Origin: a virus
Length of the DNA stretch: 22,401 bases
Direction: 5' to 3' (one strand)
Virus record (IMG/VR): IMGVR_UViG_3300025037_000007
Location: 1 to 22,401 of that record
In this document: positions 7,534-17,486 of the stretch, in pieces
How positions within the stretch are numbered: the first letter of the stretch is position 1
Layout: each line of letters begins with the position of its first letter
Translations under genes and position numbers: made by a program
Notes under the pieces: model-generated
The model's input: only the letters and a program-made list of their open reading frames with translations
Told to the model about the DNA's origin: nothing
Database searches by the model: none

Positions 7534-7989
7534 CTACTTAACCTCCACTGATACGCTAGGTTTAGCAGCTTTGGTGGTCATGTACTGCGCCATAAGTGGT
7601 ACAAGGTCATCACGCATGGTTTCAAGTGCGCGCAGCTTAGTGGTATTCAGCGATGCTTTGAAATTGACACACTGCTTAATCTCATTGGGTAGCTTGTCCC
7701 AATCTGATTGAATGGCCTTATCATCTAATGAGCGGGTGAGCTTGCCGACGGTCTTCACTTTAAATAAGATACCTTCAGCGTTTGTGGTACCTTCTTCAGC
7801 GAAGCCTACCAATTCAGTGATTTGGCTTTCGACTTGTATGCGGCGGTCTTTTGCGGCTGCTTCCGCTTCTTTCGCTTCTTGCCAATGACGGGCAAGAACA
7901 TCGATTTCATTGTCCATGGCCGGTGCAACTGGGGCGATGGCGCTTGGTGCGTTGCTTGCTTTAGCAGCTTGGGTGACAAATGCGTTCAT
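7534..7989 (-). CDS. Conserved phage protein of the recombination module
   Basis: A 151-residue protein with an alanine/proline-rich start, a helical, probably coiled segment (LARHWQEAKEAEAAAKDRRI, about 32-60) and a beta-rich middle (ILFKVKTVGKLTRSLDD). It is of the type that precedes Sak4/DUF669 genes in many phages, reminiscent of Gp157-like proteins, but I cannot assign a name or activity. The frame is open 35 codons further upstream; the internal ATG at 7989 is chosen because GGAAGGAAT stands 8 nt before it and the longer form would run into the previous gene. Its stop abuts the ATPase start, so the two are co-translated. Confidence 0.75.
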   Translation of the reverse strand: MNAFVTQAAKASNAPSAIAPVAPAMDNEIDVLARHWQEAKEAEAAAKDRRIQVESQITELVGFAEEGTTNAEGILFKVKTVGKLTRSLDDKAIQSDWDKLPNEIKQCVNFKASLNTTKLRALETMRDDLVPLMAQYMTTKAAKPSVSVEVK

Positions 7990-12129: not shown

Positions 12130-12882
12130 ATGACAGTTAAAAAAATAGAAATAGGTGATGTGTTCCCTACGAATGGGGGCGGTAGTGTCACGGTTATTGA
12201 GTACAAAGGGTCTAAAAATATCCTCGTAAAACACAATGACAAGCATGAGCATCAGGCCGTTGTTAATTCTACTAACTTAAGAAAGGGTGAGGTTAAAAAC
12301 CCATATCTCCCCGTGATTTTAAATATTGGATTTATGGGAGTGGGTAAATTCAAATCTAAAAAAAATGGCAAGGTCTCTATTGAATATGCCGTTTGGGTGA
12401 AAATTATAGATAGATGCTATAACCCTGAATTCCACGTTAAATTTCCAACCTATGCCGATTGCAAGTTATGTGATGAATGGCGCAACTTCCAAGTTTTTGC
12501 AGAATGGTACACAAGTAATAAGTTTTATGGCCTTGGCTATCAAATTGACAAGGACATTTTAAGCAATGGAAAAGGAAAGGAGTATTCGCCAGAGAATTGC
12601 ACCTTGGTGCCCTTGGAGATCAACTCATTAATTTTAGATAGGGCCGCCAAGCGCGGAGAATATCCAATTGGTGTTAATTATGACAAAAGTAGAGGTAATT
12701 TTTTCTCAAGTATGAACATAAGGGGGAAAACAAAGAATCTAGGTCGTTTTCATTGCCCTGCTTTAGCTCATAAAGCCTATCTATTAGCGAAAGAAGCTCA
12801 TGTCAAGGATATGGCAGAAGAATATAGAGGCAGAGTAGACGATAGGGTTTACGACGCTTTAATGCTTTGGAAAGTAGCTTAA
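12130..12882 (+). CDS. HNH/AP2-like homing endonuclease candidate
   Basis: A 250-residue protein resembling free-standing phage HNH endonucleases with AP2-like DNA binding. Seen: IDRCYNPEFHVKFPTYADC (about 95-115), CDEWRNFQVFAEWY, then YQIDKDIL...KGKEYSPENCTLVPLEIN, where D-K-D and the N-C...P...N residues are the expected metal-finger/HNH region, and YPIGVNYDKSRGNFFSSMNI with LGRF...AHKAYLLAKE, the AP2-like part. The first 60 residues form a small beta domain. GGAG is 8 nt before the ATG. The gene has clear gaps on both sides and looks more AT-rich than its neighbours, fitting a later insertion. Whether it still cuts is unknown. Confidence 0.8.
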   Translation: MTVKKIEIGDVFPTNGGGSVTVIEYKGSKNILVKHNDKHEHQAVVNSTNLRKGEVKNPYLPVILNIGFMGVGKFKSKKNGKVSIEYAVWVKIIDRCYNPEFHVKFPTYADCKLCDEWRNFQVFAEWYTSNKFYGLGYQIDKDILSNGKGKEYSPENCTLVPLEINSLILDRAAKRGEYPIGVNYDKSRGNFFSSMNIRGKTKNLGRFHCPALAHKAYLLAKEAHVKDMAEEYRGRVDDRVYDALMLWKVA

Positions 12883-12904: not shown

Positions 12905-15211
12905 ATGAGTAAATTTATGAGTACAGAATTAAAAAGCAGCCTAGATTACGCCCTTGCTTATGCCGAATTGGGGTGGAAAATATTTCCTGCTTGGAATATT
13001 AAAAAAGATGGCAGCTGCGCCTGTGGCTCTGAAAAATGCAGCCCCGGCAAACATCCGATTAGCACATTGGCGCCACGCGGTCAGGATTCATCTACCAGTG
13101 ATAAAGCAGTTATTACTGAATGGTTTACCACATATCCTGAAGCGAATATCGCAGTTTATTTGGCGGGTAGCGGACTGTGCGCAATCGATATAGACCCTCG
13201 TAACGGGGGTGACTACACGATGGAAGAACTGGAAGCCGAACACGGTGAGCTTGTCGCTGACGTGGTCCAGTTGACCGGCGGGGCGGGTGAGCATCGTTTG
13301 TTCTTACGTCCCGATGGTACGTTGCCCGGTAAGCTTGGTAAGGGTGTCGATGTAAAGCTAAACGGTTACATTATCGCAGAACCTAGCAATCATATCTCTG
13401 GCGGTGAATACGTTTGGGAAGCGTCAAGCTGTCCGCTCGATGGTGCGGTAGCGGGACCATTGCCCGATTGGATTCGCTCATTTAGTACCAGTCCGGCAAC
13501 TGACGGCAATAGCGGTATGGCTATCAATTTTGGTATGGATGACGGTCAGTATTATGACGTATTAGAGGCGCTGCCATTTATTGATAACGACGATCGTGAT
13601 ACGTGGTTACGTGTCGGCATGTGCTTATTCACTAGCAATGATAAGCGTGCTTATGGCATGTGGTGCGATTGGTCAGCGGGCAGTGATAAGTATGATCATG
13701 ATGATCAGTACCGAGTATGGCGCTCATTTCGCCATAAAGGACTAGATAGTGTTGATGTTCCGACCATCTTCCATATGGCGCAGGATAGCGGCTGGATTAA
13801 TACAAAGTCAGGTGTTGGCGTGGTTAGCTCGCAAGATATCGATTATGACGCCGAGGATGTGATGATTGAAAAATATAGCAATGCTGAACAGGTGCCTGAT
13901 TATCTAAAAACGATACCCGTCTATAAGCTCAAAGAAGTTACGGATTGGATTGAAGGTAATAGCCGCCAACCGCAGCGCGAAATAACTGTGCTCACAGCAT
14001 TGTCATTGGCTTGCACATTGGCCGGTCGCAATTATGCTTCAGAAGAAAACAACACGAGCTCAATGTATTTCATGCTACTGGCTGAAACGGGCGTCGGTAA
14101 GAACTACGCCAAAACATCGATTCAAACATTCTTGGTTGAGTCGGGTCTTGAGACGCTGCTATCAGGTAGTGGTAACACGTCACCAGGCGCAGTCTATACC
14201 GCGCTATGTAAATCTCCTTGTCATATTCAGGTGACTGATGAAGTGGGCAAGCAGTTGGCTACAGCTCGCAAGGCGGGTAACGGTCAAATGGCTGAAGCAT
14301 TCAGCACGCTAACTGAAGCATATTCTGCTACCACGTCTTATATGATCCCTAAAAACTACAGTCAGCTTGGCGATATCGCTAAGGGTAAAGCGACGGCTGA
14401 GAAAAACATTGTCATTCATTGGCCAGCTATTACTACTTTTGGCATTGGTACGCCCGGTCAAATTTTTGACAACCTAACGACGGGTGAGATTGAGGATGGC
14501 TTCTTGAATAGACAAGTCGTTATCCAAGCATCTGAACCATTGGCAGCGCGACGCCGCATTAAAAAGCAGTCGGTACCGGAACACTTGAAAGAATGGGCCC
14601 AAGACATACGCCATCCACAACCGCAAAGCCGTACTGATTTGACGGGTAATGTTGAAAGCTATGATTTAACGCCGACGCCAAAGATAGTGGCCATTAGTGA
14701 TGAAGCGATGGATTTGTTCGACGACTTACTTGACACATTAGAAGCGCAAGAGAAAGCCGGTGCATTTTTACTGCCCGATTTAACACGGCGCTGGGTTGAA
14801 AACTCCATGCGCTTGGCCACAGCATTGGCCGTGTGCGAAAACTCAGAAAAACCCGTTATTACCGAATTGATTGCTGATTGGTGCATTGCTTACGTGGTTT
14901 TTTATGGCAAACGGTTTATGCGTGCTGCAGCAACCAATGTGGCGGATGGTGATTTCCATAGATTGTATTTGAATGTGCTTGAAATGGTCAGTCGCACCGG
15001 CTCGAAAGGCGCAACGCAAAGAGATTTATCGCGCAATAGTAAGTTGTTCAGATCGACTAAGCCGAACGACCGTGATCAAGTATTTAAAGCGCTACTCATC
15101 GAAAATCAGATTATGCAGGTATCTATTGATCAGTTTTCTGGTCGAGGTCGTAAAAGAGTCTGTTTTATCACGCCAGATAACTTTGATGATGAAAATATGC
15201 AAAATGCTTAA
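12905..15211 (+). CDS. Bifunctional primase-polymerase / helicase
   Basis: A 768-residue replication protein. The N-terminal Prim-Pol domain (about 10-190) has zinc ligands C-A-C-G...C-S-P-G-K-H-P and the catalytic Asp95/Asp97 (AIDIDPRNGG), with GEHRLFLRP carrying the conserved His. A PriCT-2-like linker follows (about 215-300; YDVLEALPFIDNDDRDTWLR). The C-terminal part has Walker A ETGVGKN (394-400), a VTDEVG Walker B-like site, and the DUF3987-type helicase body. It probably both primes and unwinds at the phage origin. Two in-frame ATGs (12905, 12917) are possible and neither has a good ribosome site, unusual for this operon. The candidate origin begins 5 bp after its stop. Confidence 0.9.
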   Translation: MSKFMSTELKSSLDYALAYAELGWKIFPAWNIKKDGSCACGSEKCSPGKHPISTLAPRGQDSSTSDKAVITEWFTTYPEANIAVYLAGSGLCAIDIDPRNGGDYTMEELEAEHGELVADVVQLTGGAGEHRLFLRPDGTLPGKLGKGVDVKLNGYIIAEPSNHISGGEYVWEASSCPLDGAVAGPLPDWIRSFSTSPATDGNSGMAINFGMDDGQYYDVLEALPFIDNDDRDTWLRVGMCLFTSNDKRAYGMWCDWSAGSDKYDHDDQYRVWRSFRHKGLDSVDVPTIFHMAQDSGWINTKSGVGVVSSQDIDYDAEDVMIEKYSNAEQVPDYLKTIPVYKLKEVTDWIEGNSRQPQREITVLTALSLACTLAGRNYASEENNTSSMYFMLLAETGVGKNYAKTSIQTFLVESGLETLLSGSGNTSPGAVYTALCKSPCHIQVTDEVGKQLATARKAGNGQMAEAFSTLTEAYSATTSYMIPKNYSQLGDIAKGKATAEKNIVIHWPAITTFGIGTPGQIFDNLTTGEIEDGFLNRQVVIQASEPLAARRRIKKQSVPEHLKEWAQDIRHPQPQSRTDLTGNVESYDLTPTPKIVAISDEAMDLFDDLLDTLEAQEKAGAFLLPDLTRRWVENSMRLATALAVCENSEKPVITELIADWCIAYVVFYGKRFMRAAATNVADGDFHRLYLNVLEMVSRTGSKGATQRDLSRNSKLFRSTKPNDRDQVFKALLIENQIMQVSIDQFSGRGRKRVCFITPDNFDDENMQNA

Positions 15212-15215
15212 TTTT

Positions 15216-15442
15216 CATTGTTGTCCATTGTTGTCATTGGTTGAATGACGATTATAACGTATATGTAGTAAGGGTTACATCATTGTTGTCATGATTATTA
15301 TAGGGGTATATGTATATATATTTTAAAAAGAAATAGGGGTATATAGCCATTAATCATGACAACAAAGCGGAAAGGTATATGTAGTAAGGATTATAACCGT
15401 CATTTAGGGTATGACAACAATGCGCAAGAATGGACAACAATA
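15216..15442. repeat. Candidate replication origin: dyad of iterons
   Basis: Six copies of the 10-mer CATTGTTGTC: three forward at 15216, 15226 and 15281, three reverse at 15358 (9/10), 15413 and 15433 (9/10). The 15226/15413, 15281/15358 and ATGACG-TTATAA pairs (15245-15258, 15390-15403) all share one axis at 15324, and the 55-bp spacing is equal on both sides. TTGTTGTCATGATTA (15283-15297) is perfectly inverted at 15351-15365. Inside each arm the 15-mer GTATATGTAGTAAGG (15259-15273, 15375-15389) occupies mirrored positions but in direct orientation. The centre (15300-15344) is AT-rich with two ATAGGGGTATAT copies. Location after the primase gene fits a phage ori. Confidence 0.75.
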
Positions 15443-15560
15443 GAGGTTTTACGAGGTTTGAATTAAACGGAGTTAATCCAAGAACCCTTAATATACATGG
15501 GCTACAGACGATAAGTCAAACACTAAAATAATAAATATTACTTAAATAGGAAAAATAAGC
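15443..15560. other. Gap between repeat block and rusA
   Basis: AT-rich noncoding DNA leading to rusA. A 33-codon frame from 15430 crosses it without any ribosome site and is not called. I see no clear promoter or terminator hairpin; the rusA ribosome site AGGA is at 15548-15551. Confidence 0.5.
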
Positions 15561-15959
15561 ATGACCAGACTAACCTTGATAGCAGAATTATCTATCCCAG
15601 CAATACCGCCAAGCGTGAATCATTACCTCAAACAGCGACGTGGTGGCGGTAAAACGCTTACTGACGCATCAATAGAGTTTAAGCGTACTGCTTATCAAGC
15701 AATTGGACGTTACGCACCGCACAAGCCATCTGAGAAGCGTATAGCAGTGGAAGTCACTTACTATCCAGCACGTAAAGGCGATAGCGATATTGATAACCGC
15801 AACAAACTCGTGATGGACGCATTGGTAGAGGCTCAATTCATTGTTGATGATAGTCAGATTGACGAGATATTGATGAAGCGTGGTAAGGAGATCATAACTG
15901 GTGGCCGTACTGATTTGATTGTGTGTGAGATTGACGATAGACGGCAGTTATCAAAATAA
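15561..15959 (+). CDS. rusA: RusA-type Holliday junction resolvase
   Basis: A 132-residue endonuclease that resolves branched DNA made by phage replication and recombination, cutting symmetrically as a dimer. The N-terminus has IPAIPPSVNHY, where RusA proteins have P-x-P-x-x-N, and the active site reads D-S-D-I-D-N-R-N-K (Asp76, Asp78, Lys82) with LVMDAL (Asp86) and IVDDSQI (Asp96/Asp97), the full acidic set. Length is typical. AGGA precedes the ATG. Positioned between primase and the antiterminator as in many lambdoid phages. Confidence 0.93.
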   Translation: MTRLTLIAELSIPAIPPSVNHYLKQRRGGGKTLTDASIEFKRTAYQAIGRYAPHKPSEKRIAVEVTYYPARKGDSDIDNRNKLVMDALVEAQFIVDDSQIDEILMKRGKEIITGGRTDLIVCEIDDRRQLSK

Positions 15960-16800: not shown

Positions 16801-16823
16801 ATACTCGCTGATTGGAGGTGAGC

Positions 16824-17486
16824 ATGTCAAAAAAGCTCACTAACACGAAGCATCAAATGTTTGTTGATGAGTACATCATTGACTTCAACGCTAAAGAAGC
16901 AGCAATCAGGGCAGGCTATAGTCCAAAGACGGCAGCACAGCAAGGCTATCGATTATTGCAGGATGAGCTCATAGCCGCAGCTATCGATGAGGCTATTGCT
17001 AAGCGCACTAAGCGCATGCATATCACGCAAGACCATGTTTTAGGAATGTGGTGGCAGATTGCCAATGCTGACTATAATGAGCTGTCTAGCGTGCGTCGTG
17101 TTGCTTGTGGTTATTGCTATGGCGATAACATTACGATGGGCGATGACGATGATGCCCGTGAGATTGACCCAAGCCGCGACCCAAATCCCGACTGCGGTAT
17201 TTGTAGAGGTGAAGGTTCGCCCCATGTGCATATCGCAGATACTGAAAAGCTTTCACCAGCCGCTAAACTGTTATACCAGGGCGCTAAAGAAACGAAGTTC
17301 GGTATCGAGGTTATGACCGCCGACAGAATGAAAGCACTTGATAACGTGGCAAGGCATTTGGGTATGTTTAAAGATACGGTCAATCATGTGTCGGAAGATG
17401 GCAGCATGACGCCGACAATCAACAACTTCAACGGTGACGCTCAAGCAGCAAGCCAAGCCTATCAGGATATTATGGGTGGTAAATAA
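16824..17486 (+). CDS. terS: Terminase small subunit
   Basis: A 220-residue small terminase (Terminase_2 family) that recognises phage DNA and recruits the large subunit. N-terminal helix-turn-helix: [20 protein letters not shown], then [18 protein letters not shown] zinc-ribbon insert with CGYC and CGIC (about 93-140) and [12 protein letters not shown] follows, then [22 protein letters not shown] and a low-complexity tail. This insert is known in one branch of the family. ATG at 16824 chosen for GGAGG 5 nt upstream; an upstream TTG is less likely. TAATG overlap with the next gene. Confidence 0.92.

Follow-up and report, generated by a model that had tools for sequence, protein, structure and literature searches.

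We analysed a 22.4-kb virus record (22,401 nucleotides; hereafter the window, meaning this whole stretch of DNA), a fragment of a Psychrobacter phage, and found at 15216-15442 a block of facing repeats that is most likely the replication start of the phage, judging from comparisons of sequence. The block contained six CATTGTTGTC-type 10-mers, three facing three, around an AT-rich centre. A first-pass annotation had proposed it as a candidate origin, and this was strongly supported by an array geometry that stays constant while its letters vary, by the linkage with a primase-helicase gene and by a natural cassette swap. The features were as follows:

12905..15211, + strand: primase-helicase gene, 768 aa, proposed initiator (Pfam; PHROG 3022 DNA primase)
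14942..15181, + strand: coding part for the winged helix (residues 680-759), proposed iteron-binding domain (AlphaFold2 model)
15216..15225, + strand: iteron 1, CATTGTTGTC (10-mer search)
15226..15235, + strand: iteron 2, CATTGTTGTC, last outer iteron of the left arm (10-mer search)
15245..15258, no strand: left-arm mirrored element, half-iteron ATGAC plus TTATAA box (dyad analysis)
15256..15276, + strand: left core AACGTATATGTAGTAAGGGTT, degenerate copy of the family quasi-palindrome
15281..15290, + strand: iteron 3, inner left, 55 bp from iteron 2 (10-mer search)
15291..15357, no strand: AT-rich centre, 78% AT, proposed unwinding element (base composition)
15303..15311, + strand: GGGGTATAT element, left
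15336..15344, + strand: GGGGTATAT element, right
15358..15367, - strand: iteron 4, inner right, one mismatch (10-mer search)
15372..15392, + strand: right core AAGGTATATGTAGTAAGGATT, oriented like the left core
15390..15403, no strand: right mirror partner of 15245-15258, TTATAA box plus CGTCAT (dyad analysis)
15413..15422, - strand: iteron 5, 55 bp from iteron 4 (10-mer search)
15433..15442, - strand: iteron 6, one mismatch (10-mer search)
15443..15522, + strand: strongly conserved stretch lying between the array and the RusA gene, possible leader or 33-aa ORF (alignment with L003 and L004)
15561..15959, + strand: RusA-type Holliday junction resolvase gene, downstream neighbour (Pfam PF05866)

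Four of the 10-mers were exact and two had one mismatch; matches to CATTGTTGTC were confined to the block, with none elsewhere in the 22.4 kb (shuffles expect 1.84 +/- 1.24). The array was mirrored about an axis at 15324, so that the coordinates of each mirrored pair add up to 30648: 15226-15235 with 15413-15422, 15281-15290 with 15358-15367, 15245-15258 with 15390-15403, and the 15-mers 15259-15273 with 15375-15389. The six facing 10-mers, the axis, the spacing of 55 bp between outer and inner iterons in each arm and the AT-rich centre had all been described correctly in the first-pass annotation, as had the mirrored 15-mers in the same orientation, of which the window held exactly two copies, both on the + strand. 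The 72-bp arms, said to align without gaps, did align about the axis, but their identity was 68% (49 of 72 positions paired at 27-98 bp from the axis), not near-perfect, and the outermost iteron pair (15216-15225/15433-15442) lay 10 bp off register. The axis was still the strongest dyad among all axes in the window, 8 s.d. above the mean with a runner-up at 48%, and the best of 500 dinucleotide shuffles of the region paired 38 of 72 positions. A distance of 5 bp from the primase-helicase gene had been given; the array was indeed directly 3' of it, with four bases between the stop codon (gene end at 15211) and the first iteron. The 38-kb contig L005 corresponded to the same phage and carried an identical block, and six of the seven TTGTTGTC copies in the 38-kb sister contig were inside the block. 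The GC skew across the 22-kb fragment showed no turn at the block, an Rfam search returned chance matches only, and the block, used as a query, had no match among phage records at the DNA level. A cruciform formed by the whole dyad is formally possible.

The leftward genes of the window encoded a CI/LexA-like repressor, a Sak4-type annealing protein, an SSB-like protein and a helicase, and the rightward genes YdaS/Cro, an HNH endonuclease, the primase-helicase, RusA, a Q-like antiterminator and a small terminase (Pfam, PHROG). By inspection of the window, the long ORFs after the small terminase corresponded to large terminase, portal and head genes; terminase and portal are annotated in the Mcat relatives. 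The HNH endonuclease (12130-12882), just upstream of the primase-helicase gene, had an AP2-like end and resembled homing endonucleases. On the other side of the block, about 80 bp (15443-15522) matched L003 and L004 nearly letter for letter and were better conserved than the array. A 33-aa ORF (MDNNRGFTRFEL...) begins there in iteron 6 and fits the window and L003, but its start is lost in L004, so this stretch may be a non-coding leader.

The primase-helicase presented a Prim-Pol domain (residues 16-189), PriCT_2 (221-292), a DUF3987 helicase (498-674) and a winged helix at about 680-759. The latter was predicted by AlphaFold2 from the C-terminal 90 residues with high confidence (mean pLDDT 85), the low-confidence helicase part of a first model having been left out. 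The top Foldseek matches of this C-terminal model were winged-helix proteins, none of them significant, and a sequence search against solved structures gave no matches. Covariation between winged-helix residues and iteron class was not significant (Fisher p=0.44), residue 710 being the only winged-helix position that separated all three iteron classes. In L003 an extra 103-aa ORF after the array (7656-7967) resembled the primase winged-helix domain (KGLTKRDL...SGRGRKRV), and may be what remains of an earlier initiator or encode an accessory protein that binds the origin.

Related phages or prophages of Psychrobacter, Moraxella and other Moraxellaceae yielded twelve further arrays, all immediately 3' of DUF3987 primase-helicase genes, giving 13 with that of the window. 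The primase-helicase was 89% identical in a prophage of Psychrobacter piscatorii LQ58 (L003/L008), 88% in the viral contig L004 and 70% in a second genome of the same family (L014); other relatives were present in Moraxella-type genomes and phages (L015-L018, Mcat10, Mcat17, L039 and L040), and the Moraxellaceae genomes L074-L076 and L078 had other helicase versions. The N-terminal domain differed, being Prim-Pol in Psychrobacter and RepB_primase with a zinc ribbon in Moraxella, and the DUF3987 helicase and the 3' array were kept together across these types; from this comparison the primase domains appear to have been exchanged while helicase and array stayed linked.

The first-pass annotation had suggested searching relatives for an arm geometry that holds while the bases vary, and this is what the arrays showed. 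The order in the 13 arrays was outer iterons, core, inner iteron, centre, inner iteron, core and outer iterons, except that some right arms (L014-L018) were without a clear outer set, L074-L076 had additional inner iterons, and L078 had the facing iterons but no core. The iteron itself was GTTGTC in the window, L003 and L004; GCAGAC in L014, L016, L017 and Mcat10; GGGGAC in L015; CTGTCA in L018; GTCAA in Mcat17; and GCTAA/GGCTAA in L074-L076. Of 16 arms that could be measured, 14 had 55-57 bp between the last outer and the inner iteron: 55 or 56 bp in both arms of the window, L004, L074 and L075, 56 and 57 bp in Mcat17, and 55-56 bp in the one measurable arm each of L014, L015, L016 and L076. 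The remaining two arms, both of Mcat10, had 66 bp, a value that hints at helical phasing of the spacing. A random three-iteron arm would hold a 55-57 bp pair with a chance of about 8%; arrays of one lineage are not independent and a joint probability is therefore not given. The TTATAA box was also present in L014-L017 and Mcat10, and GGGGTAT-type elements were found again in the centres of most related arrays, although the centres of L015 and L016 were less AT-rich than that of the window (50% AT in L016).

The array is not a constant feature of the protein family, since a 3' array was not found in Pseudoalteromonas phages C7 and H40/1, Vibrio phage 1.005.O, Serratia phage Bonzee and Roseobacter phage CRP-902, which are more distant but have related primase-helicases. 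A RusA-based search for more arrays recovered the sister contig only and no other primase relative, and a loose pattern scan of viral contigs gave noise. In Sinorhizobium phage AP-16-3 (L275, 2731-2988), facing TTTGGAATT-type repeats with an AT-rich stretch between them lay 3' of a distant primase-helicase, and the layout may thus reach outside Moraxellaceae.

L039/Mcat10 provide the strongest individual argument for a functional pairing of helicase end and array. Their primase-helicase was 92-97% identical to that of Mcat17 across most of the N-terminal primase half, whereas the helicase and winged helix were only 22-43% identical. The gene was followed by a new array 1, next by a remnant of the old gene (its final ~25 codons) and by the old array 2, with downstream genes still of the Mcat12/17 type. 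By this alignment, helicase, winged helix and array were apparently exchanged as a unit into a Mcat17-like phage. At the junction of the new array and the relic gene tail, the deposited Mcat10 record (L030, 3801-3813) has an A-rich 13-mer annotated as 'attL', which may be a mis-annotated recombination scar.

A symmetric-consensus scan revealed a 21-bp quasi-palindrome, AA[GC]CCTTAnnnnnTAAGG[GC]TT, in both arms of most arrays, with the second-best core site above nearly all shuffles in the window, L015, L016, L017, Mcat10, L074, L075 and L076. Its AAGG half was almost invariant and its CCTT half looser; in the window CCTTA had decayed to GTATA, which makes the two copies look like plain direct 15-mers. 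The first-pass annotation had taken these as a possible sign that the core of one arm was once inverted, as would fit identical, direct 15-mers within inverted arms. This is very improbable: in 10 of the 13 arrays, among them all four from Psychrobacter, the two cores were more alike in direct than in inverted orientation, so that a shared orientation is the common state and not an inversion scar; GCTATATATATCAAGGG occurred in the right arm in L003 and in the left arm in L004, oriented alike relative to the genome, and the family as a whole shares a core that is itself quasi-palindromic. The direct cores may give the origin polarity, as the annotation had also suggested. Folding of the single-stranded core into a hairpin was weak or absent in the window, L003 and L004. 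Core palindromy averaged 11/20 in the RepB_primase phages and 8/20 in the Prim-Pol group (p=0.02, for loci that are not independent). The window and L018 shared GTAGTAAGGGTT in their cores while their initiators were only 25% identical overall, which suggests that whatever binds the core, perhaps a host factor, changes less than the domain that reads the iterons. Among six genomes scanned, CCTTAnnnnnTAAGG was above its control in three (partly via tandem repeats) and not in the other three, and the few chromosomal TGTAGTAAGGRTTA matches showed no arrays where inspected; the core is therefore no clear chromosomal motif of the host, an outcome that speaks neither for nor against a host factor.

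Three other functions were considered for the block. Some pac sites typically show repeat arrays close to terminase genes, and the small terminase gene (16812-17486) is only 1.4 kb downstream, so the block could be a packaging site for the small terminase subunit. We hold this to be highly unlikely because the new array of L039/Mcat10 arrived with the helicase and winged helix while the downstream genes remained as they were, and because the partial contig L006 has an almost identical large terminase-like protein without the primase end and the array. In L006 (4914-5396; also in L007) a primase-helicase fragment is fused to the RusA end and the origin array is absent, either a deletion derivative or an assembly chimera. 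An operator array or promoter for the RusA-Q-terminase genes would account for the + strand genes that follow and for the 80 conserved bp past the array. Promoter-like matches did occur in and near the block, but no more than in shuffles; a scan of the block found no terminator-like site, the repressor genes are about 5 kb distant, and the array stays with the primase-helicase while the downstream genes vary (RusA in many, others in L015, L016, L018 and Mcat17), which leaves transcription control with little chance. Finally, the block might serve copy control or partition, like P4 crr or a plasmid centromere, with the true origin elsewhere; P4, with two alpha-binding regions (ori and crr), is the precedent. 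Both the 22-kb window and the 38-kb sister contig had a single iteron cluster, however, and no partition gene was found among the window proteins examined (Pfam, PHROG), so we regard this as scarcely probable.

Taking the observed architecture, its conservation, the linkage to the primase-helicase, the cassette swap and the predicted winged helix together, we consider quite probable a full reading of the block as an iteron origin, in which binding, melting, the two hexamers, bidirectionality and the identity of the core-binding factor are the parts that we infer. The phage's own primase-helicase, in this reading a self-loading initiator, would bind the facing iterons via its C-terminal winged helix and assemble on both arms, probably as one hexamer per arm; the AT-rich centre between the inner iterons would melt, two helicases would leave in opposite directions, and the fused Prim-Pol domain would prime. 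The core in each arm would be a second, slower-changing protein site inside the fixed 55-bp spacing, for a host factor, an accessory protein or a second contact of the initiator. An unlikely elaboration makes the cores primase start sites (or a host-factor site), the whole being a hybrid of PICI-like iteron arms loading two helicases and RSF1010-like priming, with fixed 55-bp spacing and exchange of a helicase-winged helix-array cassette across Moraxellaceae phages. As an iteron origin, the block looks like an exchangeable cassette, because relatives keep the layout within a base or two while the repeat letters change. The family offers origins with one geometry and different iteron letters, plus a natural replacement that left a relic of the old origin, which makes the origin specificity of fused primase-helicases testable by simple swaps.

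Among known systems, SCCmec Cch2 is similar in being a self-loading helicase whose C-terminal domain binds repeats 3' of its gene (PMC7581432), but it has three direct iterons (AAGTG) without a dyad, and polymerase-primase functions on separate proteins. ORF904 of pRN1 also joins Prim-Pol, helicase and winged helix in a single protein, with an essential origin sequence <=166 bp 3' of the gene; that origin is a 100-nt stem-loop without iterons and the helicase is SF3, in contrast to the long-spaced iteron arms here (PMC4234260). A stem-loop origin of the pRN1 type was rejected for the block, where iterons are present and the cores barely fold. The alpha protein of phage P4 has a TOPRIM primase and two separate sites, and we know of no mirror array with a core in P4. 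Alpha does unite a primase, a helicase and a C-terminal winged helix for origin binding, and repeats are present at the origin (PMC4234260). RSF1010 differs in that single strands of the window core hardly fold and the window primase is a Prim-Pol. Its Rep proteins are also separate. Its likeness lies in ssiA/ssiB, one 21-nt hairpin site with single-stranded tails per strand as compared with a core of 21 nt here, and in RepB', whose RepB_primase domain is found in the Moraxella relatives (PMC4434180).

The closest layout is that of PICI and SaPI origins. In PICI origins an AT-rich region 3' of rep is bordered by two sets of iterons, and a PICI rep-ori replicates when cloned (PMC6092414); the C-terminal domain of SaPI Rep and of Cch2 binds iterons directly 3' of its own gene (PMC7581432). 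The novelty claimed in the first-pass annotation is thus not supported in a strong sense. As in SaPIbov1, SaPI1 and EcCICFT073, the origin in the window and its relatives lies immediately 3' of the initiator gene, with iteron sets (here three facing three) around an AT-rich region (here 78% AT); the C-terminal iteron recognition of the PICI/SaPI initiator helicase would be matched by the predicted winged helix, a likeness by layout (PMC6092414, PMC7581432). A PICI satellite identity was rejected, as such satellites depend on a helper phage for capsid and large terminase: the window has its own small terminase, plus large terminase, portal and head genes by inspection, and elements carrying their own packaging and head genes are not PICIs but full temperate phages. 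They also differ from PICI/SaPI origins, as far as these are described in the passages considered, in their strict mirror arms, fixed 55-57 bp spacing and conserved 21-bp quasi-palindromic core. The best reading, by analogy, is a phage origin that would be organised like those of PICIs and SaPIs, but in full temperate phages.
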